From contig JALVVX010000030.1 of assembly GCA_027038555.1 (NCBI GenBank), positions 1 to 38,935 on the forward strand: a stretch of DNA of 38,935 nt, in the 5' to 3' direction. Made by a program: the position numbers and the translations under genes. Of this stretch, positions 2,808-35,583 are shown piece after piece; the stretch's first letter is position 1, and every line of letters begins with the position of its first letter. The notes beneath the pieces were generated by a model. The model made no database searches. It saw only the letters and a program-made list of their open reading frames with translations, and was not told where the DNA came from. The stretch is from Nautiliaceae bacterium (lineage in GTDB: Bacteria; Campylobacterota; Campylobacteria; Campylobacterales; Nautiliaceae).

Positions 2808-3218
2808 ATGAAAAAAATTTTATTATCAGTGTCTGTGATTTTGGCTCTTTTTGGGGAACAGAGTGCCTATAATTTTGGGGGTAATTATACGATTGACGGC
2901 AAAATTATTAAGTGTTATAAAAAATTTTATAATTATGGCAGCATAAAAAGAGAATGGTTTTTTATAGATTTGTCTGTGCAAAATAAAATTTATAATATTG
3001 CAATTATGCCTGCTAATAAGTTATCAAGCATTCCACTTAAAAAGGGAGATAAAATAAAAGTAACAGGTTTTATTTCTAATAATTTAGAAAATAACATTTT
3101 TAATGCAGTTTATATTTATGATTTTACTCAGAAAAAAAAGTACATATTGGCACAAAAGTGTTTTTGGGGAGGAATAGGGAATAGAAGATATTGTGATATT
3201 TATAAACAAATAAATTAA
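2808..3218 (+). CDS. Small secreted protein of unknown function, possible OB-fold
   Basis: I do not recognise the family with certainty. The 136-residue product starts with a short signal peptide (KK, then ILLSVSVILALFG; likely cleavage near SAY). The mature part has alternating beta-type stretches ending in a segment (IPLKKGDKIKVTGFISNN) that resembles the end of small OB-fold proteins. Two or three cysteines in the mature part could form a disulfide. It has its own likely promoter and an AAGGGAAGGG ribosome site. It converges with the NUDIX gene, sharing 4 bases at the stops. It is probably periplasmic; the function is open. Confidence 0.7.
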   Translation: MKKILLSVSVILALFGEQSAYNFGGNYTIDGKIIKCYKKFYNYGSIKREWFFIDLSVQNKIYNIAIMPANKLSSIPLKKGDKIKVTGFISNNLENNIFNAVYIYDFTQKKKYILAQKCFWGGIGNRRYCDIYKQIN

Positions 3219-7041: not shown

Positions 7042-7617
7042 ATGAAAACTTTCAGAACTGCAATAATATTGGCAATAATAATAGTTTTTTTTAAATTTCT
7101 TACACAAAACGGAAATAATTCTGATGAATCAATCAAACACACAACACAAAACATTATTAATCAAATGCAAAATGAATATAAACCTATAAAAGATTTTTCA
7201 TTTTTGGATTTGAATCATTCTTCAAATATAACAGAATCAAAATCTGTAAATCAAACAGAATATAAAAATTTAAAAAATGAAAAAAAAGAATTGTTTATTA
7301 AAATGCAAATTTTGAAAAAAGAAATACATATAAGTCCGCCGGGTCTTATTGTTGATGTTAAAATAGATAAAAACAACCCGTATTTTGATAATGAAAAGTT
7401 TTTTAAAATTGCCACGCAAGCTGTTATATTTACTTTTTGCAATCAAGAAGCCAATGTTTTTTCCGCATCTAAAAGAGCTTATTTGATATTGAATATAACT
7501 AATGGTCTTTATTCAAAATCATTTAATCTTAACGATAAATTTTGTAATTCTTTGAATTTATCTTTATTGGATCAAATTACCGATGATTATACAATTGTGT
7601 TAAAACCAAAAAATTAA
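7042..7617 (+). CDS. Membrane-anchored protein of unknown function
   Basis: I do not recognise this 191-residue protein. It has one N-terminal hydrophobic segment (about residues 7-21, AIILAIIIVFFKFL), then a polar, Asn/Ser/Lys-rich stalk to about residue 90. The C-terminal part is more ordered, beginning at HISPPGLIVDVKID and holding two cysteines near FCNQE and FCNSL. Topology is likely N-in with the rest periplasmic. It stands alone between tRNA-Val and the thrS promoter, with a GTAATTATTTTTA leader and no strong Shine-Dalgarno. It is more AT-rich and lower in complexity than its neighbours, which may mark fast evolution or recent gain. Confidence 0.7.
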   Translation: MKTFRTAIILAIIIVFFKFLTQNGNNSDESIKHTTQNIINQMQNEYKPIKDFSFLDLNHSSNITESKSVNQTEYKNLKNEKKELFIKMQILKKEIHISPPGLIVDVKIDKNNPYFDNEKFFKIATQAVIFTFCNQEANVFSASKRAYLILNITNGLYSKSFNLNDKFCNSLNLSLLDQITDDYTIVLKPKN

Positions 7618-16271: not shown

Positions 16272-16970
16272 TTACTCCTTTATTTTTTTATATTCTTTAT
16301 CTAAAATTTGTTGCATTTTTTCTCTTGTCTCTTCGTACCAGTTCGGATTTTCTTCCGGATAAAAACTTTTAAGAAAAATTACTTTAATAGGTACTTTTTT
16401 TATTAAAAATTTTCCTTTGAAGGCGTATGGAAGATTGATAATAACAAAAGGTTGAATTTTAGGATTTAATTTTTCAGCCAGTGCTTTTACCCCTTTTTTC
16501 CATGGAAGCATTTTTTTGGGGTTTATCTTATTTCTTGTACCTTCTGGAAAAACTACGACTTTGAAGCCTTCATCTATTTTTTTCTTAACTTCTTTAATCA
16601 TTTGTAAAACAGAGCGTTTGTTTTTTCTGTCTATTAATATCATATCGGTTTTAGTAACCATATATTTTATAATAGGAATATCCCCCAATTCTTTTTTTGT
16701 AACCCATATTAATTTTTCTTTATATACGCTTTCCATTAATGATATATCCAAATTATGTGTGTGATTTCCGATTAGAAGTTTAGCATCAGGGTCAATTTCT
16801 CCTTCAATAATTACTTTTTCGGCAATTAAATTTGTTAAAATTTTAGAAACTTTTTTTCTGTATTTAAGCTCATTTTTAGGGTTTATTCCACACATAGCCG
16901 ACGCATATAAAATAGCAGTTCCACCACGTATAATTTTATAAAAAGATGAAATATAATCAATTATTTTCAT
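16272..16970 (-). CDS. plsC: 1-acyl-sn-glycerol-3-phosphate acyltransferase (PlsC family)
   Basis: Adds the second acyl chain to make phosphatidic acid for membrane lipids. The catalytic H-x4-D is GNHTHNLDISL (His70, Asp75), and the substrate motif FPEGTRNK lies at about residues 141-148. An N-terminal hydrophobic stretch (about 15-28) should hold it on the inner membrane. At 232 residues it is a usual length. It overlaps the preceding gene by 14 bases and is followed by crcB one base later, the same order as in Campylobacter jejuni. A lysophospholipid acyltransferase with other acceptors is possible but less likely. Confidence 0.93.
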   Translation of the reverse strand: MKIIDYISSFYKIIRGGTAILYASAMCGINPKNELKYRKKVSKILTNLIAEKVIIEGEIDPDAKLLIGNHTHNLDISLMESVYKEKLIWVTKKELGDIPIIKYMVTKTDMILIDRKNKRSVLQMIKEVKKKIDEGFKVVVFPEGTRNKINPKKMLPWKKGVKALAEKLNPKIQPFVIINLPYAFKGKFLIKKVPIKVIFLKSFYPEENPNWYEETREKMQQILDKEYKKIKE

Positions 16971-17916
16971 TAACCCATCCTATTTTGTTGTTTATTTTAA
17001 TTTTAATATAATTAGCCCTTTTATTTAATATTTCAGCTTTTGTGTCTTTTTTTACTATATAAAAAACAGTGGAATTTTTAGTAGGTAGAATTTGAACTTT
17101 TGTTCCTTTTTTTAGGATGATATCACCTTTTGGCAAAATTTGAATTATTAGATATATTACTAAAATAATGGGAAACAATAAAATCCATATTTTTTGATAA
17201 ATTAAAAAGATAATAATTCCTATTGCTATAAGAATAAGAATAATTATATTAAGAGGTGTAAATATTTTATTTTCATTCGGATTTATATCGGTTTGTGTAC
17301 TGATAGTCTCTTCTTTTAGTATTACAGGTATATTTAATTTTTCAAATTTGCTTTGATGTATATTGTAATAATAAAAACTTAATTTTTTTTGGTGTTTGGG
17401 TAAAATAATGTAAAATGTTGCTTCGGTAGGAGATACAATTGTCAGATTTTCATCTTTGTTGAGTTTGAAATCATTAATATTGCAATTTTTACATTTTATG
17501 GTAAAAGAAAGAATCGTTTTAGTATTGTCATAAGTTGACGCGATAGGATTGATTATTTGAAAATTATCCGCCAAAACTCCGCAAAAATTTTTGATATGAG
17601 GTAATTTTTTAATTTTTATTTGTTTATTAAGGTAAATTTTTTCTTTTTTATTCTTTGATGAGATTAAAATAATTTTATTTTTATTATCGGCTTTAAATTT
17701 TGTTGTCAATTCGTAAATATAAGGATTTATTTTAGTAATGTTTAAATCAACATCGGAATTATTTATAAAAATTAAATTAGGTTTTGGAGAAATAAGCTTG
17801 AATTTAAGATTTACTATTTGGTTTTTATAATAAAAAGGTTTTAAATTCTCATATTTAATTATAAAATCGGAAGCAAAGAGAAAAAAAGGTATTATTAATA
17901 AAAATATAAATCTCAT
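16957..17916 (-). CDS. Secreted/membrane protein with C-terminal SH3-like domain, function unknown
   Basis: The 319-residue protein has a signal peptide (FIFLLIIPFFLFAS), a periplasmic beta-rich region to about residue 205, two hydrophobic helices close together (about 222-240 and 243-262) and a C-terminal SH3b-like segment (GTKVQILPTKNSTVFYIV, then NYIKIKINNKIGWV). It holds the position of the unnamed periplasmic protein Cj0515 between purQ and plsC in Campylobacter jejuni. Lys/Asn/Ile content is very high. Location next to a cell-wall peptidase suggests an envelope role, but that is inference. Overlaps on both sides (4 and 14 bases) place it firmly in the operon. Confidence 0.8.
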   Translation of the reverse strand: MRFIFLLIIPFFLFASDFIIKYENLKPFYYKNQIVNLKFKLISPKPNLIFINNSDVDLNITKINPYIYELTTKFKADNKNKIILISSKNKKEKIYLNKQIKIKKLPHIKNFCGVLADNFQIINPIASTYDNTKTILSFTIKCKNCNINDFKLNKDENLTIVSPTEATFYIILPKHQKKLSFYYYNIHQSKFEKLNIPVILKEETISTQTDINPNENKIFTPLNIIILILIAIGIIIFLIYQKIWILLFPIILVIYLIIQILPKGDIILKKGTKVQILPTKNSTVFYIVKKDTKAEILNKRANYIKIKINNKIGWVNENN

Positions 17917-22246: not shown

Positions 22247-24850
22247 ATGGAAAAATTATTCGAAAAATTAACAAACCAAATGATGGAGGCTATTGAAAGC
22301 GGACTAAGCCTTGCGCTTCACAATAAAAATCCGGAAGTGCATCCTTTACATATATTATGGGGACTTTTGACAAATACCAATACTGTATTAAATCAGGCAT
22401 TAAATAAAATGGGAGTTGATAAAGTAGCTATCGAACTTGAAGTAAAAAGTGCGGTTGACAGACTCCCGAAAGTAGACAATATTACAAAAGAATCAATCAG
22501 AATAGGAAGAGAGCTTATTGAAAGTTTACAAAAAGCGGAAGCTCTTGCGACAAAACTCGGGGATAAATATGTAGCGGTTGATACTTGGCTTATTGCAAAT
22601 CTTGATACTTTTAAAGATATTTTAGGTAAATATGTCAATTTAATGGAGCTTAAAAAAACACTTGAAGCAATAAGAGGGGATGCAAAAATAGAAAGCAAAA
22701 GTGCTGATGAAAATCTTGATGCATTAAATAAATACGGAATTGATTTGACAGAAAAAGCAAGAAAGGGTGAGCTTGACCCTGTAATCGGAAGAGATGAAGA
22801 GATTAACAGAATGACTCAGATTTTAATTAGAAAAACAAAAAACAATCCTATTTTACTCGGTGAACCAGGGGTTGGTAAAACAGCACTTGTTGAAGGTCTT
22901 GCACAAAGAATAGTTAAAAAAGAAGTTCCAACTTCACTTCAAAATAAAAAAATTATAGCACTTGATATGACATCTTTAATCGCAGGCGCGAAATACAGAG
23001 GTGAATTTGAAGACAGATTAAAAGCCGTTGTGGATGAAGTAAAAGCAAATCCGAATATTATTCTGTTTATAGATGAAATTCATACAATTGTCGGAGCAGG
23101 TGCAAGTGAAGGAAGTATGGATGCGGCAAATATCCTAAAACCGGCACTTGCAAGAGGGGAGCTTAGAACTATCGGTGCGACAACTTTAAAAGAATACAGA
23201 AAATATTTTGAAAAAGACGCGGCGCTTCAAAGAAGGTTCCAGCCTGTAATGGTTAATGAGCCAAGCGTTAATGAAGCTATAAGAATTTTAAGAGGTCTTA
23301 AAGATAGACTTGAAGCGCACCACAAAGTAAAAATTTTAGATGAAGCATTGGTTGCGGCGGCAAAACTTACAGATAGATACATAACTGACAGATTTTTGCC
23401 TGATAAATCTATTGACGCAATTGATGAAGCGGCGGCTGAGATTAGAATGCAAATTGAGTCTGAACCGTTTGAGCTTTCTAAAATCAAAAGAGAAATTGAA
23501 CAGTTAATGGTTGAAAAACAAGCACTTGAAATGGAAGGTTCAAATACTGAAAAAGTAAAAAAAAGATTGGAAGAAATTGAAAAACAACTGGCTGATTTAG
23601 AAGAGAAAAAAAGACAGCTTAAAGCAAAATACGAAGAAGAAAAAAGAGTTCTTAAAGAAATAGCCGATATTAAAGAACAAATAGAAAAACTCAAAAACGA
23701 AGCTGAAATTGCAAAAAGAGAAGGTGATTTCCACAAAGCTGCTGAAATTGAATATGGAAAAATTGTAGAACTTAATAAAAAATTAGAAGAGTTAGAGAAA
23801 AAATGGGAAGAAATGCAAAAAGAAGGCACACTTTTAAAAAGTGCTGTTGATGAAGAGGCAGTTGCAGATGTTGTAAGCAAATGGACAGGAATTCCTGTAT
23901 CTAAAATGCTTCAAAGCGAACTTGAAAAAATATTACATATTGAAGATGAGCTTAAAAAATGGGTTGTCGGACAAGATGAAGCAATTAAAGCCGTTGCAAG
24001 AGCGATTAAAAGAAATAAAGCGGGACTTGGTGACCCAAATAGACCAATTGGTAGCTTTATGTTTTTAGGTCCGACAGGAGTTGGTAAAACTGAAACAGCC
24101 AAAACATTGGCAAGATTTTTGTTTGATGATGAAAAAGCACTTATCAGATTTGATATGAGTGAATATATGGATAAAATAAGCGTATCAAAACTTATCGGTG
24201 CGGCGCCTGGTTATGTAGGATATGAAGAAGGCGGACAGTTAACAGAGGCTGTGAGAAGAAAACCTTACAGTGTAATTTTATTTGACGAAATTGAAAAAGC
24301 ACATCCTGATGTATTTAATATTCTTTTACAAGTGCTTGATGATGGTAGACTTACGGATAATAAAGGTGTAACAGTTGATTTTAAAAATACAATTATTATC
24401 TTAACAAGTAATATTGCAAGCGATATTATTATGGAAATTAAAGACCCGAAAGCAAGAAAAGAGGCTGTATGGGCAGAACTGAAAAGAAGAATGAAACCTG
24501 AGTTTTTAAACAGACTTGACGAGGTAGTGGTATTTAATCCGCTTGGAAAAGAACAAGTTAAACAAATCGTTGAAATTCTGCTTAAAAAAATCAAAAGCAG
24601 ACTTGCTGAAAGAGATATCGATCTTGTGCTTAGTGAAAGAGCAAAAGACTTTATCGCAGAAGTAGGATTTGATCCGGTATTTGGGGCAAGACCTCTTAAA
24701 AGAGCTCTTGCAGATGTTGTGGAAGATAAACTTGCCGAGCTTATTTTGGCTGGAAAAGTTAAAGACGGAGACAAAGTTGAATTTGACGTTGATGAAAATC
24801 ATATCATAGTTAAAGTTAACGGAGTTGAAGTTGCAAGAGACCCTAAATAA
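22247..24850 (+). CDS. clpB: ATP-dependent disaggregase ClpB
   Basis: Hexameric AAA+ chaperone that pulls apart heat-damaged protein aggregates with DnaK. In order: an N-domain (about 1-145); AAA-1 with Walker [11 protein letters not shown] (from Gly205) and Walker [11 protein letters not shown]; the long charged coiled-coil M-domain (about 400-540), the mark of ClpB rather than ClpA/ClpC; AAA-2 with Walker [11 protein letters not shown] (from Gly608) and [13 protein letters not shown]; and a C-terminal D2 small domain. At 867 residues it is full length. It has a strong promoter and its own terminator, so it is a single-gene unit. Divergent ctpA-pur genes match the Campylobacter neighbourhood. 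Confidence 0.98.
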
Positions 24851-24868
24851 CAGGGTCTTTTTATTTTT
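24838..24868 (+). terminator. Rho-independent terminator of clpB
   Basis: AGACCCT-AAATAAC-AGGGTCT is a 7-bp GC-containing stem followed by TTTTATTTTTTT. The stem overlaps the last codons and the stop of clpB. Confidence 0.88.
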
Positions 24869-24960: not shown

Positions 24961-24969
24961 TGATATAAT
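24961..24969 (+). promoter_or_regulatory. Extended -10 promoter of the small-ORF/PAS/chemoreceptor operon
   Basis: TGA-TATAAT lies 18 bases before the ATG at 24988. A weak TTGTTA at 24939-24944 is 19 bases from it. This is the only good promoter before the run that ends at the chemoreceptor gene. Confidence 0.5.
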
Positions 24970-24987: not shown

Positions 24988-25161
24988 ATGAATGTAAAAC
25001 AAAAAGCTATTGAAAAAATTAAAAAATCCAATCTTGATAAAGATAAAATTGATACTACTATTCATCATATAAAAGAATGGTATATAGAAGATATAACGGA
25101 AGAGAAGTTTTATAAAGAGCTTGTTAAAAAATTTCCTTTTTTGAAACCTCTGTTTTTTTAA
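24988..25161 (+). CDS. 57-residue protein of unknown function
   Basis: A short frame starting ATG at 24988 (after AAAAAGG) and ending TAA at 25159-25161. The product is highly charged and probably helical (KQKAIEKIKKSNLDKDKI, then a W-Y-I-E-D segment) and ends in a hydrophobic KFPFLKPLFF tail. It has no signal peptide or cysteine. The stop is 9 bases before the start of the membrane protein gene, whose ribosome site (TAAAGG) uses the stop region, so the two are likely co-translated. I do not recognise a family. It is supported by promoter, ribosome site, spacing and codon use typical of its neighbours, but its length leaves doubt. Confidence 0.6.
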   Translation: MNVKQKAIEKIKKSNLDKDKIDTTIHHIKEWYIEDITEEKFYKELVKKFPFLKPLFF

Positions 25162-25170
25162 AGGATGGAT

Positions 25171-25548
25171 ATGCTTTCTTTTTATTTTTCTCTTCACATA
25201 ATAGCTGTTACAAGCTGGATAATGTTTTTGCTTCAATTTATAAAATCTCTGCAACATCAAAGAATCAATGAAGGTTATGTATTTGGATTTTTAAGTCTGT
25301 TTTTTTTGGTGGTAACTTTTTATTTGGGTATAAAACTAATAGGGTTTAATCATGATATTTTCAAATCTGGCGGATGGCTTCATTTGAAAATTACTCTGGC
25401 TTTGATGTTGGGTATAGAAAATATATATTATTTTTATAAGTTTGTAAGAAGAAAAAAGATATCGTTAAAACTGGCGGAAATAAATTATTGGATGACATAT
25501 TTAATATTCGTGTTTATTTTGTTTTTGACTCTTTTTAGACCGTTTTAA
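25171..25548 (+). CDS. Small four-helix membrane protein, HemJ/CopD-like
   Basis: A 125-residue integral membrane protein with four hydrophobic helices. A His in helix 1 (FYFSLHIIAVTSWIMF) and the GGWLHLKITLALMLG segment with Lys resemble the HemJ (UPF0093) / CopD-like superfamily, whose members bind heme or act in protoporphyrinogen oxidation. The HemJ-type YHxR elements are not clear, so I do not call it hemJ. I choose the ATG at 25171 because AAAGG lies 6 bases before it; the ATG at 25165 would abut the ribosome site. It sits 10 bases before the PAS-protein gene, suggesting a membrane/redox partner in that operon, which is inference. Confidence 0.68.
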   Translation: MLSFYFSLHIIAVTSWIMFLLQFIKSLQHQRINEGYVFGFLSLFFLVVTFYLGIKLIGFNHDIFKSGGWLHLKITLALMLGIENIYYFYKFVRRKKISLKLAEINYWMTYLIFVFILFLTLFRPF

Positions 25549-25558
25549 AGGATAAATA

Positions 25559-26140
25559 ATGAATAATAAAAGAATAGAAGATAAATTAAAAGCGGGGAAA
25601 AGGCTCTCAAAACTTGATGCGCCCAAAACCATCATAAACAAAGAAAAAATATTAAGCGAGAATGATTTTGTTGTAAGTAAAACAGATACAAAAGGCTATA
25701 TTACATATTGCAACAGAATATTTGTGGAAATGGCCGGGTGGAGCAGGTTTGAGCTGATTGGAGCTAATCATAATATAATAAGGCATCCGGATATGCCAAA
25801 AATCGCTTTTAAAATTCTTTGGGATTTGATACAAAATAAAAAAGAATTTTTCGGATTTGTCAAAAACCTGAGAAAAGACGGTGGATTTTACTGGGTTTTG
25901 GCATATATCACACCTGATTTGGATTTAAACGGAAATATTATAGGCTATACCTCTTTTAGAAAAAAGCCGAGCGGAAAAGGGGTTGAGGCTATGTCTGAAA
26001 TATATAAAAAATTAAAAGAAGCGGAAATGAGCGGAGGTATGAGTGAGGGTTATGAGCTTTTAAAAGAACTTTTAAATGCCGATGACGATAATATAATAGA
26101 TAAATATCATAAATTAGTATTTGATTTACAAAAAGGGTGA
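25559..26140 (+). CDS. Aer/CetB-type PAS-domain redox sensor
   Basis: A 193-residue cytoplasmic protein with one PAS domain (about residues 35-140). It includes YITYCNRIFVEMAGWSRFEL, the loop NIIRHPDMPK (Arg75, His76, Asp78), FFGFVKNLRKDGGFYWV and GYTSFRKKPS. The R-H-x-D spacing equals the FAD-contact residues of E. coli Aer, so FAD binding and redox or energy sensing are likely. It has no membrane helix or output domain, as in Campylobacter CetB, which passes its signal to a separate receptor. The chemoreceptor gene starts 3 bases after its stop, making this a bipartite sensor. The C-terminal helical 50 residues could be the docking part. Confidence 0.88.
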   Translation: MNNKRIEDKLKAGKRLSKLDAPKTIINKEKILSENDFVVSKTDTKGYITYCNRIFVEMAGWSRFELIGANHNIIRHPDMPKIAFKILWDLIQNKKEFFGFVKNLRKDGGFYWVLAYITPDLDLNGNIIGYTSFRKKPSGKGVEAMSEIYKKLKEAEMSGGMSEGYELLKELLNADDDNIIDKYHKLVFDLQKG

Positions 26141-26143
26141 GAA

Positions 26144-27475
26144 ATGTTTTTTAAAAAAAATAAAGTGAACGAAGAAGTCCTTGATAAAATTGAAGATGTG
26201 GTAAAAAAAGCATATGAGGGAGAACTTTATCACAGAATCATTATAAACGGTGAAGAAAGCAAAGAAGAGAAAATTGCCTGGAATATCAATGAAATGCTTG
26301 ATCAGATTGAGGATTTGCTAAGAGAAGCCGAAAACACAATCAAAGGTATTGTTGACGGACAGGAATACAGATATATAATGCCCAGAGGTCTTCACGGGGA
26401 ATTTAAAAATGTTGCTGATGAATTTCAAAAAGTGTCCGAATCTCTTAAAATATCGAAAAAAGTGGAACTTATAAAAGAAATGTCCGATAAATTTATAGAA
26501 ATTGATGGGGGCGTTAGCGCCAATTTGCAATTGGTGGGTGATAATATTTTCGATATTGGTTCTTCTTTTAAAGAGATTGCCGAAAAAGTTAGAGCTTCTT
26601 CAAAACAGGCGGATGAAACATTTGAAAAGATGAAAGAAGCTAAACAAAATTTTGAAATTTTATCTCAAAAAGTTCATGAAACATCAAATGAAGTAAAAGA
26701 TATGAACGAGCATATAACTTCTATTTCAAATATTGTTGAGCTTATTAAAGATATTGCTGACCAGACAAATCTTCTTGCATTAAATGCGGCAATTGAAGCC
26801 GCAAGGGCCGGGGAGCATGGAAGAGGGTTTGCAGTTGTTGCCGATAATGTTCGTGAACTTGCGGAAAAAACACAAAAAGCGACTAATGAAATTGCAATAA
26901 CAATTCAGACGTTACAACAACAGTTTATGAGTATAAACGAAAATACGAATGATATAGTTGAGATAGGTAATACTTCATACAAAACTTTGGAAGATTTTGA
27001 AAAATTGCTTTTTTCTCTCCAAAAAGATTTGAGTATGGTAAATGATATTACGGAAAAAAATATGTTAAAATTGATACTTGTTACATTTAAAATTCATCAT
27101 ATTATTTATAAATCAAATATTTATGCATCAATTGCAAGAGAAAAAGTAGATGATAAAATCTATAATTTAACCGATAAAACTTGTGCTCTTGGAAGATGGC
27201 TTGATAATCCTAAAATAAAAAAAATTTTAAAAAATTATAAAAATTACAATCTTTTAATCGAATTACATAAGAAAATTCACGATTTAGGTCAAGAAGTGTT
27301 GGCAAATGTGAAAAAAGACGGAGTTAAGAAAGAAAATCGGGAGTATTATTTTAAAAAATTGGTAGAATTGGAAGAAAATACGGGAAAATTATTCGATTTA
27401 TTCAACGATTTGGTAGAATTCATTATTAAAATACAAAAGGTAAATGAAATTTTAAAAGAAACTAAGGAAATTTAA
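26144..27475 (+). CDS. Soluble methyl-accepting chemoreceptor with C-terminal zinc-binding CZB domain
   Basis: The 443-residue chemoreceptor has no membrane helix. Residues about 10-110 look like two HAMP-type helical repeats (each with a KG/DG.. then I.WNINEM or [11 protein letters not shown] pattern). The signalling hairpin tip is present as [26 protein letters not shown] onward to [12 protein letters not shown] (split here; about 203-245), which contacts CheA/CheW. The C-terminus is a CZB domain with ligands His318 or His319, Cys347 in CALGRW, His375 and His379 (HKKIH). CZB receptors such as Helicobacter TlpD respond to zinc or oxidants. The TM-less form differs from Campylobacter CetA. 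Paired with the PAS protein 3 bases upstream; gltX overlaps its stop. Confidence 0.9.
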
Positions 27476-28776
27476 TGCTCAGATTTGCGCCGAGTCCTAC
27501 GGGAGATATGCATATAGGAAATTTAAGAGTTGCTATTTTTAATTATATTGTGGCAAAACAGAAAAATGAAAAACTTTTAATAAGAATCGAAGATACCGAT
27601 AAAGAAAGAAATATTGAAGGTAAAGATAAAGAGATTTTGGAAATCCTTGATATTTTCGGGATAAAATATGACCAGGTTGTATATCAGTCTTCAAATTTTC
27701 ATATTCATAGAGAAATGGCTAAAAGACTTCTTGATAATAAAAAGGCATTTGTCTGCTTTTGTAATGAAGATGAAATTGCAGTTGAAAGGGAAAAAGCAAA
27801 AATCGAAAAAAGACCTTACAGGTATTCGGGCAAATGCGAATATCTTGATTCAAAAGAAATAGAGAAAAAAATAAAACATAAAAAACCATTTGTAATAAGA
27901 CTTAAAAAGTCTGAAAAACCGGTTAAATTTAGCGACCTTATAAAAGGTGAAATGGAATTTTCACCGTTTGATATTGACAGTTTTGTAATTATGAGAGCTG
28001 ATTTGACTCCTACTTATAATTTTGCATGTGCGGTTGATGATATGCTTTATGATATTTCTCTTGTAATAAGAGGGGAAGATCATTTAAGCAATACGCCAAA
28101 GCAAATTGCTATAAGAAAAGCACTTGGATATGATAAAGAAATAGAATATGCCCATTTGCCTATAATTCTTAATGAAGAAGGCAAAAAAATGAGTAAAAGA
28201 GATAATGCAAGCAGTGTTAAATGGCTTTTAAAAGAAGGTTTTTTACCAGAGGCAATTGCAAATTATTTAATTTTGCTTGGAAATAGTTTTGAAAAAGAAG
28301 TATTTACTTTAGAAGAGGCAGTTGAGTTTTTTGATTTAAGCAAAATTTCACGTGCACCAGCGAAATTTGATATTGATAAACTTAAATTTTTAAATAAAGA
28401 ACATATGAAAAAATTAAATAATCTTGCTAAAAGATTCGGGGTAAATGAAATATATGAAGGACTTTTGCAGATTTTTAAAGATGAAAGTGATACTTTAAAA
28501 GAGATAAAAGAAAAATTTGATATGGTGTTTGAAAAATGTGAAGATGAAGAGTTTAAAAATGAAAGAGAAATTATAAAAAAAGAGATTTTGGAAAACGAAC
28601 TTGAAGAAAATTATGATGAGTTTAAAAAACATATTCAAACAAATACAGGTCTTAAAGGTAAAAAACTGTTTATGCCATTAAGAGAACTTTTAATAAATCA
28701 AAAACACGGTGCGGAAATTAAAGATTTATATAAAACTATGAGACCTTATTTAAAAGAAGTTATAAAAACAAGATAA
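27475..28776 (+). CDS. gltX: Glutamate--tRNA ligase, GluRS2-like
   Basis: Class I synthetase. The HIGH-type motif is FAPSPTGDMHIGNLR, and the KMSKS-type motif is KKMSKRDNASS. A zinc-like cluster C-F-C (94, 96) with Cys121 follows, as in E. coli GluRS. At 433 residues and with the [16 protein letters not shown] start it resembles the second GluRS of Helicobacter pylori, which mostly glutamylates tRNA-Gln for conversion by GatCAB. A second gltX elsewhere in the genome is therefore predicted. The ATG overlaps the chemoreceptor stop by one base, probably fortuitous clustering. The assignment to the tRNA-Gln type is by recalled similarity, not alignment. Confidence 0.93.
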   Translation: MLRFAPSPTGDMHIGNLRVAIFNYIVAKQKNEKLLIRIEDTDKERNIEGKDKEILEILDIFGIKYDQVVYQSSNFHIHREMAKRLLDNKKAFVCFCNEDEIAVEREKAKIEKRPYRYSGKCEYLDSKEIEKKIKHKKPFVIRLKKSEKPVKFSDLIKGEMEFSPFDIDSFVIMRADLTPTYNFACAVDDMLYDISLVIRGEDHLSNTPKQIAIRKALGYDKEIEYAHLPIILNEEGKKMSKRDNASSVKWLLKEGFLPEAIANYLILLGNSFEKEVFTLEEAVEFFDLSKISRAPAKFDIDKLKFLNKEHMKKLNNLAKRFGVNEIYEGLLQIFKDESDTLKEIKEKFDMVFEKCEDEEFKNEREIIKKEILENELEENYDEFKKHIQTNTGLKGKKLFMPLRELLINQKHGAEIKDLYKTMRPYLKEVIKTR

Positions 28777-29088: not shown

Positions 29089-30575
29089 AGTTTTTATATT
29101 TTTTCATCCCGGCTTTTTTGTTTTCCCTTAATCTTAGTGAAATTTTAACCCATCCGAAAAGTTATGTCAGAGATTTTTATTTAACGGAATTTATGAGAGA
29201 AACTAATAATTCCGTTTTGGCCTTTAAAGCGTATTCTTCTTTGTATAAAGTTAAACTTTTCAAACACACAAGACTTCTCTCAAAATTTCCAGAATTCAAA
29301 GATATATATAGATGTATAAACGTAAAAAAAGAATATTTAAAAGAAGTAGATATTAGTTGTATTTTGAACAATGGACTTTCGCTTGGAACAATCTCAAAAC
29401 TAAATAAAAACGATTTAAAATATTTGTATAATAACCTTCCTCCTTCAAAACAAAAAAAAGCCGTAAAAGTTTTTTTAAATAATGATTTTTCACAAATATT
29501 TAAAAACAGAGATTTGGGTTATTATTTTATTTTAAACTATCCGAGTAAAAAAATAGATCAAAAAATTAATAATTTCAAAATTTTTGAAGACAAATATTTT
29601 TATCTTTTTGTAAAAAGTGCGGTAAAAAATCGTCTTTTAAAAATTAAAAAATCTTTAAATAAGCTAAATTATAAAAAATTTAACGATAAGGTAAAATGGT
29701 GGCTTTTTTTAAATGCCATGACTCTAAATAATCAAAAAAGGGCTTTTAAAATTTTGCAATCTATAAAAAATAAAACTTCGAAAATCAATTTTTGGCTTTG
29801 GAAATTAAGTGATAATAAAAAATACTTAGATAATCTTTTGAAAAACACAAGAGTGAACTTTTATACTCTGTATGCATATGAGCAAGCAGGTAAAAAATTT
29901 AAAAACATTAAAACCGATATAATTTATAATTCAGTAAAAAAACCTGTTTTTAATCAAAATAATCCATGGGATGTGCTTAAATTTTTTGCTACATTAAATA
30001 ACACGAAAAACTTTTTTGCTCTTGCAAAAAAACTTGATAATTATAATTCCGTTGCATTAAAAGCAATTGTTCTTGATAAGGCTTTTCATTATAAATATAA
30101 TTATTTTATAACACCGAATATTTATAATGATAAAAATGTTTCATTTAAAGCCTTTGTATATGCAATTACCAGACAAGAGAGTAGATTTATACCTGCGTGT
30201 GTGAGTAGAAGTTATGCTCTTGGAGCTATGCAGATTATGCCTTTTTTGATTAGAAGTTATAAAGGTAACGTATTTAAACAGTTTGATTATAAAGAAAACA
30301 TAAGGCTTGGTGTAAAACATTTAAAATGGCTCTTTGCTAAACTTCATAATCCTTTAATGGTTGCTTATGCATATAACGGGGGTATAGGGTTTGTAAAAAG
30401 AAAAGTAAAACCATTTTTTAAATATAAAGGGAAATACGAGCCTTTTTTGAGTATGGAACTTGTAAAATATGATGAGAGCAGAGAATACGGGAAAAAAGTT
30501 TTAGCGAATTATGTGATTTATTCTCATATATTCGGCGATAAAAATATAACTCTTCACAAACTCCTTAAAAAGTGA
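29085..30575 (+). CDS. Soluble-type lytic murein transglycosylase
   Basis: Cuts peptidoglycan glycan strands to 1,6-anhydro-muropeptides in the periplasm. A signal peptide (FLYFFIPAFLFSLNLS) precedes a long Lys/Asn-rich helical region (about 20-340, like the superhelical U-domain of Slt70) and a C-terminal SLT domain. The catalytic Glu365 is in ITRQESRFIPACVSRSYALG, followed by AMQIMPF and VAYAYNGG. At 496 residues it is somewhat shorter than E. coli Slt70. The start is TTG at 29085, in a TTGA overlap with yggT; no ATG fits. It converges with the lipoprotein gene, sharing 11 bases. Confidence 0.92.
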   Translation: MKFLYFFIPAFLFSLNLSEILTHPKSYVRDFYLTEFMRETNNSVLAFKAYSSLYKVKLFKHTRLLSKFPEFKDIYRCINVKKEYLKEVDISCILNNGLSLGTISKLNKNDLKYLYNNLPPSKQKKAVKVFLNNDFSQIFKNRDLGYYFILNYPSKKIDQKINNFKIFEDKYFYLFVKSAVKNRLLKIKKSLNKLNYKKFNDKVKWWLFLNAMTLNNQKRAFKILQSIKNKTSKINFWLWKLSDNKKYLDNLLKNTRVNFYTLYAYEQAGKKFKNIKTDIIYNSVKKPVFNQNNPWDVLKFFATLNNTKNFFALAKKLDNYNSVALKAIVLDKAFHYKYNYFITPNIYNDKNVSFKAFVYAITRQESRFIPACVSRSYALGAMQIMPFLIRSYKGNVFKQFDYKENIRLGVKHLKWLFAKLHNPLMVAYAYNGGIGFVKRKVKPFFKYKGKYEPFLSMELVKYDESREYGKKVLANYVIYSHIFGDKNITLHKLLKK

Positions 30576-31014
30576 GTTTTACCTCTCCCCAGTGTTTGCT
30601 TTTGTATATTAAATTATAAGGTTTGTTTGTCTGGTTAAATTCTACAAGGTAGTAGCTCATCCATGAATTATAAAAAGGATAAAATTTATATGGTATGAAT
30701 TTAGGAATTTCTGACGATATTTTCAGAGGTTTTAAACCGTTAAGTGTCAGATTGAATTCTCTGTTTTGGAGTGTGTTGTCAAAGTCGTTATAAACTCCTA
30801 CCAAAAAAGCAGTGTTTTGAAATTTATCCGGGAAAAGAGGGTTAAGATACACAGCATCAATTAAAGCTTTTGTTTCAAGTGAATTTACTATTTGTCCTCT
30901 TTGTGTATATTTTAATGTTTTTTCATATAATGAATCTTTATGAAAAGCGTTTTTTATGGCACATCCGTTAAAAATAATGCCCAAAGTTATCAAAAAGAAA
31001 AATACTCTCTTCAT
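30565..31014 (-). CDS. Putative lipoprotein of unknown function
   Basis: The 149-residue product has a lipoprotein signal (VFFFLITLGIIFNGC, lipidated Cys at about residue 18) and thus a predicted envelope location. The remainder is mixed alpha/beta with a conserved-looking KALIDAVYLNPLFPDKF stretch. I do not recognise a family. It is transcribed opposite to both neighbours. Its last 11 bases overlap the 3' end of the lytic transglycosylase gene, and it is divergent from the gene at 31065 with a 50-base gap. Confidence 0.8.
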   Translation of the reverse strand: MKRVFFFLITLGIIFNGCAIKNAFHKDSLYEKTLKYTQRGQIVNSLETKALIDAVYLNPLFPDKFQNTAFLVGVYNDFDNTLQNREFNLTLNGLKPLKISSEIPKFIPYKFYPFYNSWMSYYLVEFNQTNKPYNLIYKSKHWGEVKLTF

Positions 31015-31601: not shown

Positions 31602-31819
31602 TGCAGGATTATAAAGACAGAAAGCTTACAGGTCCTGAGATGGCGGGAGTTAGTGCGGCAATTTTAATGTTTTTCGGTGTAGGAATGATAATGGGAGGAA
31701 GTGCAAGCGGTAATATGAAACTGTTTTGGAGCGGTGTTGGAATTTTTAGTATAGGAAGTGCAATAGCTTTGTATCTTTTGTTTAAATACAAACCTAAAAA
31801 GGATGACGAGAATTTTTAA
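31601..31819 (+). CDS. Two-helix membrane protein of unknown function
   Basis: A 72-residue product with two hydrophobic helices (about 15-33 and 40-62) rich in Gly, Ala and Ser (AAILMFFGVGMIMGGSASG), a polar N-terminus and a lysine/aspartate C-terminus (KPKKDDENF). The ATG overlaps the upstream stop by one base and its own end overlaps comF by 17 bases, so coding status is well supported by packing. No family is recognised. Confidence 0.75.
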   Translation: MQDYKDRKLTGPEMAGVSAAILMFFGVGMIMGGSASGNMKLFWSGVGIFSIGSAIALYLLFKYKPKKDDENF

Positions 31820-32354
31820 TTGTTTGATTTGCGGGGAATTTTCTTTTTCTCTTTTTTGTACAAAATGTAAAAAATTGATTAAACCAGAAATAAAATATAA
31901 TGACGATGTTGTAAGTTTTTATAATTATGAAAATATTGAGTATTTAATAAAATTCAAATATAAAAAATTCGGTAACATTGTATTTAAAGAACTTTCTAAA
32001 CCTTTTGGTGTTTTTTCTAAAAACTATCCCGGTAAATTAAATATTGTGCCAATTGATGATAAAACATACAAAGGATACTCTCATACGGCAATTCTTGCAA
32101 ATGCTATGAAAAAAGATAAAAAGCTTTATTCAACCCTACATTCGCAAAATAATATCAAATATGCCGGAAAATCACTTGAATTCAGACTGCAAAATCCGAG
32201 AGATTTTAAATACACCGGTCCTGAAAATATTGATGTTGTACTTATTGATGATGTAGTTACTACCAAAACCACACTTAATGAAGCAAAAGAAGTGCTTAAA
32301 AAACATAATGTGAATGTTTTGTTTTGTCTGGTGTTAGCTGATTTGAGAAGATGA
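31803..32354 (+). CDS. ComF family phosphoribosyltransferase-like protein
   Basis: The 183-residue protein has an N-terminal zinc ribbon (Cys7, Cys10, Cys19, Cys22) and a C-terminal PRTase-type PRPP loop (VDVVLIDDVVTTKTTLNEA), the ComF layout. In competent bacteria ComF acts in handling incoming single-stranded DNA. In Campylobacter jejuni the same gene is next to gyrA (Cj1028c) and is associated with transformation. The central part is shorter than in many ComF proteins, so whether catalysis is retained is unclear. It overlaps the preceding membrane-protein gene by 17 bases. A repeat tract follows, then gyrA. Confidence 0.87.
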   Translation: MTRIFNCLICGEFSFSLFCTKCKKLIKPEIKYNDDVVSFYNYENIEYLIKFKYKKFGNIVFKELSKPFGVFSKNYPGKLNIVPIDDKTYKGYSHTAILANAMKKDKKLYSTLHSQNNIKYAGKSLEFRLQNPRDFKYTGPENIDVVLIDDVVTTKTTLNEAKEVLKKHNVNVLFCLVLADLRR

Positions 32355-35016: not shown

Positions 35017-35583
35017 ATGAATAAAACACTTTTATTGAGTATCGGCTCGGTTTTATTATTAAGCGGGTGTTGTTGTAAAACAACACCAAAATGCGCAGAA
35101 AATATATGTGAAAACAAACTTTCTCCTCTTGCACCTGTTAAAATGTCAAAACAGTCAAATCCTGTAATTAAAAAAGTGAATTACAATAATAAAACGTGTA
35201 TAATTGATAATAAAGCAAAAAAAAGTTGTATTTTAACTATTGAAGCAAAAGGAGAAGGTATAGTTCCTTGTAATGGAGCTTGCAGTACGGCACAGGCAAA
35301 AGTTATGGCAAGACGGGCTGCTATACTTGACGGGTACAGAGCTTTAATTGAAAAAATTTACGGTATTAAAATTAACGGAAGAGATACAGTAAAAAATATG
35401 GCTCTTCAATCTTCTGTTGTAAGGGCTCATATAGAAGGCCTTGTAAGAGGTGCGGTAATAGAAGACGAATCTTTTAATAACGGTGTATACAGTGTTGTAA
35501 TGAGTGTCAAATTAAATGTTCGTAAGTGGAACAAATATCTTGAAAACAGTAATTATTCTTCTTATAGCAATTATAGTAATTAA
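35017..35583 (+). CDS. flgP: LPP20-family outer-membrane lipoprotein FlgP
   Basis: In Campylobacter FlgP forms the large outer-membrane-associated basal disks of the flagellar motor and is needed for motility. This 188-residue protein has a lipoprotein signal (LLLSIGSVLLLSGC, Cys18) and an LPP20 domain (about residues 72-172): AQAKVMARRAAILDGYRAL, then YGIKINGRDTV and HIEGLVRGAVIEDE. Its position between gyrA and flgQ-flgR equals the C. jejuni order. Odd points are nine cysteines, including CCC at the lipidation site and pairs around residues 64-92, and a low-complexity NSNYSSYSNYSN tail that the flgQ frame overlaps. Call by domain plus synteny. Confidence 0.88.
   Translation: MNKTLLLSIGSVLLLSGCCCKTTPKCAENICENKLSPLAPVKMSKQSNPVIKKVNYNNKTCIIDNKAKKSCILTIEAKGEGIVPCNGACSTAQAKVMARRAAILDGYRALIEKIYGIKINGRDTVKNMALQSSVVRAHIEGLVRGAVIEDESFNNGVYSVVMSVKLNVRKWNKYLENSNYSSYSNYSN

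Follow-up and report, generated by a model that had tools for sequence, protein, structure and literature searches.

A CetA-type chemoreceptor without membrane hairpin and its PAS partner in a Nautiliaceae genome, with repeated change of anchor state among their relatives

We have analysed a stretch of 38,935 nucleotides from a Nautiliaceae bacterium (GenBank assembly GCA_027038555.1, contig JALVVX010000030.1, forward strand), here called the window, which is one contig (C30) of a genome of 1.48 Mb in 51 contigs. Between positions 24988 and 27475 it carries four tightly spaced genes on the plus strand, and the last two of these encode a PAS protein and a chemoreceptor that ends in a zinc-binding (CZB) domain. 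The main new result, as read from sequences and trees, is that receptors of this kind have changed their anchor state repeatedly; the window receptor is one of those that lack the membrane hairpin. By sequence, the PAS-receptor module belongs to the known bipartite HAMP/PAS (CetB/CetA-type) lineage. We consider it likely that the two proteins work as a two-protein receptor for redox (energy) taxis which has lost its hairpin and is cytoplasmic, with a flavin-binding PAS protein acting in trans and zinc sensed in cis. The domains and residues of the two proteins, their pairing and orthology, the missing hairpin and the repeated change of anchor state are directly established. The pair has the following features:

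25559-26140, plus strand: CetB-like single-PAS protein of 193 residues, with the residues for flavin adenine dinucleotide (FAD) of Aer, R75, H76 and D78
26144-27475, plus strand: CetA-type chemoreceptor of 443 residues without membrane hairpin and with a C-terminal CZB domain (Pfam, hydropathy, trees)
26156-26506, plus strand: HAMP-like di-repeat, receptor residues 5-121 (helix pattern of the model and invariant residues), putative docking region of the PAS protein
26630-27052, plus strand: MCP signalling domain, receptor residues 163-303 (Pfam)
27098-27301, plus strand: CZB zinc-binding domain, receptor residues 319-386 (Pfam; ligands by homology H319, C347, H375 and H379)

The window receptor contains no hydrophobic segment. 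Its 19-residue Kyte-Doolittle maximum is 0.90 and the frame from stop to stop, 444 codons, is too short for a membrane helix, in agreement with the earlier note on this DNA, which had seen none. The same frame of 444 codons excludes, for the window and three relatives, that an anchor is hidden by a wrongly chosen start codon. Nine orthologues outside the window's genus (seven from Nautiliaceae, two from another family, f13) have an N-terminal hydrophobic hairpin of about 40 residues, comparable to the anchor of CetA, with Kyte-Doolittle maxima of 1.65-2.41, and the receptors of the window and its congeners begin just past the position of this hairpin. From the stop of the PAS gene to the start of the receptor gene there are 2-4 bases in 13 of the 14 pairs from the window's genus and these nine orthologues (L016 has -23 with the first possible start), and because this gap is constant the anchor difference sits in the coding sequence that immediately follows the start codon. 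CetA proper is marked by an N-terminal two-helix membrane hairpin; since the window receptor has none, it is by its sequence an anchorless variant and not CetA itself. The same genome holds on contig C11 (L147:5894-7841) a paralogous PAS-receptor pair that retains both hairpin and CZB domain; 87 of 173 aligned positions are identical between the two PAS proteins and 144 of 431 between the two receptors. The hairpin of this paralogue ends in LFFFGKEEKK, and its FGKEEKK aligns with FFKKNKV of the window receptor. Many anchorless receptors begin with M and a few F, L, G, S or N residues, followed by K or S (MFFKK, MSFFTK, MGLFSS, MNLFSS; in the window at 26144-26170), and the same short start is found in L202 and L203, both without a PAS neighbour. 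It may be what is left of the second helix, or else serve as a localisation signal.

For the trees an anchor was called at a 19-residue Kyte-Doolittle threshold of 1.1, with anchored rows at 1.14-3.26 and anchorless rows at -0.95 to 0.75. From 149 non-redundant receptor frames 93 entered the tree set and 70 the careful receptor and PAS trees. Left out of the 93 were frames without an adjacent PAS gene, the rows of loci L050-L112 except for 12 chosen representatives and five campylobacterial ones, L100 and, by hand, L077, L076, L090, L185, L213, L007, L107 and L070; L007, from the window's genus, is anchorless and truncated at a contig end. An adjacent PAS gene was an entry condition, therefore adjacency is not a result of this set, and frequencies in it are biased because its members were selected for their similarity to the window proteins.

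For the 93 PAS-adjacent receptors, of which 77 are anchored and 16 anchorless, a quick tree starting at the HAMP region gives 8 changes of state, 6 of them forced. The careful receptor tree (70 rows) also has 8 changes, of which 7 are forced by supported branches, and the tree of the PAS partner, a separate gene, has 9 with 7 forced. Receptor trees with one change make up 0% of 200 bootstrap trees, and a single anchorless clade, imposed as a constraint, was rejected (p 6e-77). The window pair nests among hairpin-bearing pairs on both the receptor and the PAS tree, and the receptor tree unites the five anchorless rows from the window's genus in a supported clade. Since the outgroup rows are anchored, most changes are probably losses. 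An anchored receptor nested among anchorless ones (L020) could be a regain of the anchor, and the change counts cannot separate loss from regain. A scan of 298 genomes shows further short-frame receptors. A broader view, which we offer tentatively as a possibility, is that receptors of the bipartite redox type have repeatedly left the membrane: their PAS/HAMP mechanism would need no anchor, and losing the anchor would turn a sensor of energy at the membrane surface into a cytosolic one that combines the redox state of flavin in trans with the state of zinc or oxidant in cis. If this is true, one cell could hold the same receptor in a membrane-bound and a cytosolic version and compare the two.

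The PAS protein matches Pfam PAS_3 (E 3.5e-13) and has its best PDB match in the PAS domain of Aer (8dik, E 3.8e-26). The Aer FAD residues that had been read from it are confirmed by alignment: R75, H76 and D78 fall on the RHPD of Aer, which are R57, H58 and D60 in Aer numbering (PMC2628428; here and below, statements on published work refer to the accessible parts of the papers). Among the matches listed, a receptor gene lies immediately downstream of the PAS gene in 73 of 80 PAS relatives. Of the other seven, three stop at a contig end, L040 and L041 are followed by a different gene, no receptor gene was found for L045, and in L077 the receptor frame overlaps the PAS gene beyond the overlap limit used. 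In the window, a stand-alone PAS gene is followed after 3 bases by the receptor gene, as is typical of CetB/CetA-type pairs, and the earlier suggestion of a CetB/CetA arrangement with a TlpD-like zinc domain holds, the PAS gene standing directly before that of a soluble CZB receptor. Partners of anchorless receptors have the flavin residue R in 16/16, H in 16/16 and D in 15/16 cases (E in one), those of anchored receptors R in 77/77, H in 77/77 and D in 64/77.

The receptor matches Pfam MCPsignal (4.3e-35) and CZB (2.4e-10); the CZB match scores 41.0 bits against a Pfam cut-off of 29.4 and includes the three histidines and one cysteine of the zinc site. All four ligands that had been named are indeed present, and of His318 and His319, between which the choice had been left, 319 is the conserved one; none of the columns of H319, C347, H375 and H379 varies among the 8 members of alignment A5. 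The CZB profile, for which 23 family members were used, including some of the scored set, matches 16/16 anchorless and 67/77 anchored receptors (83 of the 93 sampled pairs). Read by alignment, all four ligands occur in 75 of these 83 rows (14/16 anchorless, 61/67 anchored). No match to the profile was found in four hairpin-bearing receptors of about 458 residues (L198, L200, L204, L205), which we take to be Campylobacter-like from the length of CetA. The pairing of PAS and CZB is not special to the window genome; the absent membrane hairpin is, and as the special feature it was missed by the earlier note. The AlphaFold model of the receptor (29 sequences, predicted local distance difference test (pLDDT) 84) bears out the two HAMP-like repeats claimed before in one respect: helices 5-24, 40-70 and 85-121 with connectors of about 15 residues give the helix-connector-helix-connector-helix pattern of two linked HAMP units. 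Beyond residue 121 a long signalling hairpin follows and then the C-terminal helical CZB region. In the HAMP region, residues G26, R31, N49, L52, D53, Q54, R60, R76 and G82 do not vary among the 29 members of alignment A2; Pfam HAMP matches 6/29 and HAMP_2 4/29 receptor family members. With the receptor model Foldseek found an Aer2 poly-HAMP chain at rank 46 (E 0.47), and a CZB profile search of the PDB gave no credible chain.

One could argue that the receptor is a TlpD-like zinc or oxidant receptor only, next to a vestigial PAS partner that no longer signals. It is soluble, its CZB domain has all four ligands, and TlpD itself was reconstituted in vitro with CheW and CheA alone (PMC6715182). 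However, all three flavin residues are kept in the PAS partners of 15 of the 16 anchorless receptors, where adjacency is kept as well (though it was the entry condition of the sample). The HAMP-region residues are also kept, and identity to the three nearest congeners is higher for the PAS protein (86-90%) than for the receptor (78-81%). We consider a vestigial PAS partner unlikely.

For the favoured two-protein redox receptor we infer cotranscription, signalling, cell location and function as follows. The PAS protein would bind FAD and dock on the receptor dimer at its HAMP-like region, and a redox change of the flavin would shift this region and hence CheA activity. Zinc would be bound by the CZB domain at the C-terminus of the same receptor, and this domain would supply a second input, dependent on oxidant or zinc. 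Because the CZB domain comes after the returning helix, both inputs should, judging by the model, converge on the coiled coil at its HAMP end. Without the hairpin they would report on the cytosol instead of the membrane surface, and two redox-sensing principles, flavin-PAS and CZB zinc, would be joined on one receptor. Three frames with a CheW domain lie together in one cluster of the window genome (C48), and their lengths resemble those of CheA, CheW and CheV.

Several points weigh against this cytosolic receptor with two inputs. The binding of the PAS protein to the receptor, of FAD and of zinc are all predicted. The Pfam HAMP models do not match the window receptor at E<=1. The receptor model is a monomer with a predicted template modelling score (pTM) of 0.57, and with it Foldseek gave no match at E<=0.001. 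A start of the MFFKK type could still touch the membrane. The PAS tree has a supported set of six that joins four anchorless rows of the window's genus with two anchored ones; because it splits the genus's anchorless rows in this way, the case for a single loss within the genus comes from the receptor tree. Two anchorless receptors have lost zinc ligands (L028 keeps one, L177 none), and because of this loss their zinc input is probably gone. In G003, a congener with an anchorless pair that is 91% complete, no CheW-domain match was found, perhaps owing to incompleteness. As an aside, the CZB-like domains of L028 and L177 may represent decay or a change of zinc input after the anchor was lost.

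The pair is embedded in a locus with these further features:

24835-24861, plus strand: terminator-like hairpin behind clpB, upstream border of the unit
24961-24969, plus strand: candidate promoter with the extended -10-like TGATATAAT, from sequence
24988-25161, plus strand: open reading frame for a protein of 57 residues, seen only in loci of the window's genus
25165-25548, start likelier at 25171, plus strand: four-helix membrane protein, distant relative of HemJ and SirB (Pfam on homologues, profile match, model)
27475-28776, plus strand: gltX, which does not belong to the receptor; its start codon and the receptor stop have one base in common

The four cistrons described before, with gaps of 9, 10 and 3 bases, agree with the reading frames in coordinates, order, strand and spacing when the membrane gene starts at 25171. 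From 25165 its frame has 127 residues, and six orthologues begin at or behind the ATG at 25171. Homologues of all four genes are present in relatives. The cluster does not end at 27475 as had been supposed, for the start codon of gltX shares one base with the stop codon of the receptor gene, and because of this overlap the transcript probably runs on into gltX. Downstream of gltX, yggT and then a transglycosylase gene follow on the same strand. The single promoter-like element proposed earlier exists as TGATATAAT, and judged by eye TGATACAAT or TGTTACAAT precedes the gene in L033, L035 and L037, with no equally clear promoter-like stretch before it in L034 and L036. The promoter evidence is nevertheless weak, because a consensus promoter scan gives 37 sites, with 24 expected by chance, and does not list the element at 24961-24969. 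Elsewhere in the window, reading frames of 136-319 residues at 2808-3218, 7042-7617, 16957-17916, 30565-31014, 31803-32354 and 35017-35583 have no Pfam match at 1e-5.

It had been proposed that the four genes form one unit, and one rival explanation makes them a single sensory complex in which the four-helix HemJ-like protein anchors the soluble receptor or feeds it redox information from heme or quinone. We compared 21 Nautiliaceae genomes (G000-G020) and two genomes of f13 (G032, G049). The orthologous PAS-receptor pair occurs in 12/21 Nautiliaceae, and in 12/12 of these the pair is flanked immediately by the membrane gene on its upstream side and by gltX on its downstream side (spanning two contig ends in G002). 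The HemJ homology of the membrane protein and its conserved residues, described below, would also suit a sensory complex. However, the membrane gene is present in 17/21 Nautiliaceae (the four without it, G001, G010, G016 and G020, are 57-83% complete), and in five, G006, G007, G013, G015 and G019, it stands between clpB and gltX without the pair. In both f13 genomes the pair lies at other loci, with the membrane gene elsewhere in G032 and not found in G049. The membrane gene stands equally beside anchored receptors and also occurs without any receptor, and it was therefore rejected as a replacement anchor. The small gene is at the locus in 6/8 genomes of the window's genus, two of which (G006, G007) lack the pair; it is missing at the locus in G003 and was seen in no locus of other genera, no genome-wide search having been made. 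In comparison with four relatives its differences fall mostly on third codon positions. Neither gene tracks the pair or the loss of the anchor. Because the membrane gene persists without the pair and the pair exists at other loci, PAS protein and receptor are, on this genomic evidence, one module from which the small and the membrane gene are separable. Thus, of the four-gene order only the part formed by PAS and receptor gene has stood the comparison, and we hold a complex of all four proteins to be quite improbable. The 57-residue and the four-helix protein are probably encoded by operon neighbours fixed at the clpB-gltX locus, and are not subunits. In G015 and G019 (L142:4372-4884, L143:4475-4984) a frame of about 170 residues without match to the window proteins fills the slot of the pair. 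In G007 (L140:5614-5733) a frame of 39 residues between membrane gene and gltX resembles the receptor C-terminus (23.8 bits), which suggests that the pair was lost from this locus.

For the membrane protein, 19 homologues were gathered, 18 from Nautiliaceae and one from f13. H11, W71 and K75 are invariant in them, and H73 and a PF end nearly so. The model shows four helices (pLDDT 89), and a Foldseek search with it gave no match at E<=0.001. At E<=0.1, 9/19 homologues match HemJ (PF03653, best 4e-6) and 9/19 SirB (best 9e-5), and a comparison of the homologue profile with one made from six HemJ proteins gives a match along the whole length (probability 97.9%, E 5e-13). It might thus be the protoporphyrinogen oxidase (HemJ) otherwise missing from Nautiliaceae, where a HemJ match over the cut-off occurs in 0/21 genomes and ferrochelatase in 20/21. 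Against this, a HemY-type oxidase is over the cut-off in 20/21, the FFR-NEVPT stretch of the six HemJ proteins is absent from the homologues, and the window protein reaches 13.9 bits in Pfam HemJ, far from the cut-off of 34.2. Among 36 genomes searched for both, HemY is over the cut-off in 24 and HemJ in 11, none has both, and G016 (57% complete) has neither. Since HemY-type oxidase and ferrochelatase are each present in 20/21, heme synthesis does not need the four-helix protein. A role as the missing HemJ was rejected and appears very improbable; by its sequence the protein is a divergent HemJ relative. What is left of the heme- or quinone-linked partner that had been proposed is distant HemJ homology, the tie to the receptor being position alone.

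The proposed two-protein receptor can be set beside several known systems. Escherichia coli Aer resembles the pair in its PAS domain with the R, H and D flavin residues, and it is not known to have a CZB domain. Unlike the window pair, Aer is one polypeptide and membrane-anchored (PMC2628428). CetA and CetB of Campylobacter jejuni are a bipartite pair, and 55 pairs of this kind were announced (PMC2628428). As in the window, a separate PAS protein with Aer-type flavin residues and a HAMP/MCP receptor are encoded by neighbouring genes (PMC2628428, PMC3558505). However, a two-helix hairpin within a predicted stretch of 36-38 residues (6-43) anchors CetA of C. jejuni in the membrane (PMC2628428), whereas the window receptor has none, and the CZB domain of C. 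jejuni is described on a different receptor, Tlp6, than the flavin-PAS system (PMC9665402). According to the 2013 CetABC paper, the reason for the membrane placement of CetA "remains unknown" (PMC3558505). Natural hairpin-less receptors with a PAS partner, flavin residues and a mostly intact zinc site indicate that the anchor is dispensable, and the window genome, with a soluble and a related anchored version, offers a way to test what the anchor does. Among the open-access papers listed in our literature searches we saw none that describes a CZB domain combined with a CetB-type or PAS partner, judging by their accessible parts. CetB2 and CetA2 of Magnetospirillum gryphiswaldense interact, depend on FAD and steer aerotaxis (PMC12442639). 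Here, too, PAS and receptor gene lie together, in M. gryphiswaldense with an overlap, but CetA2 is described as linked to the inner membrane, and the accessible main text does not mention a CZB domain for this pair (PMC12442639). TlpD of Helicobacter pylori differs in having a PAS fold of its own at the N-terminus, without obvious ligand pocket, and no separate flavin-PAS partner is mentioned for it in the accessible text (PMC12871147). Like the window receptor, however, TlpD is soluble and ends in a CZB domain with three histidines and one cysteine (PMC12871147, a preprint on the structure of TlpD), and a CZB receptor has been described that drives attraction to oxygen via zinc (PMC13370339, preprint).

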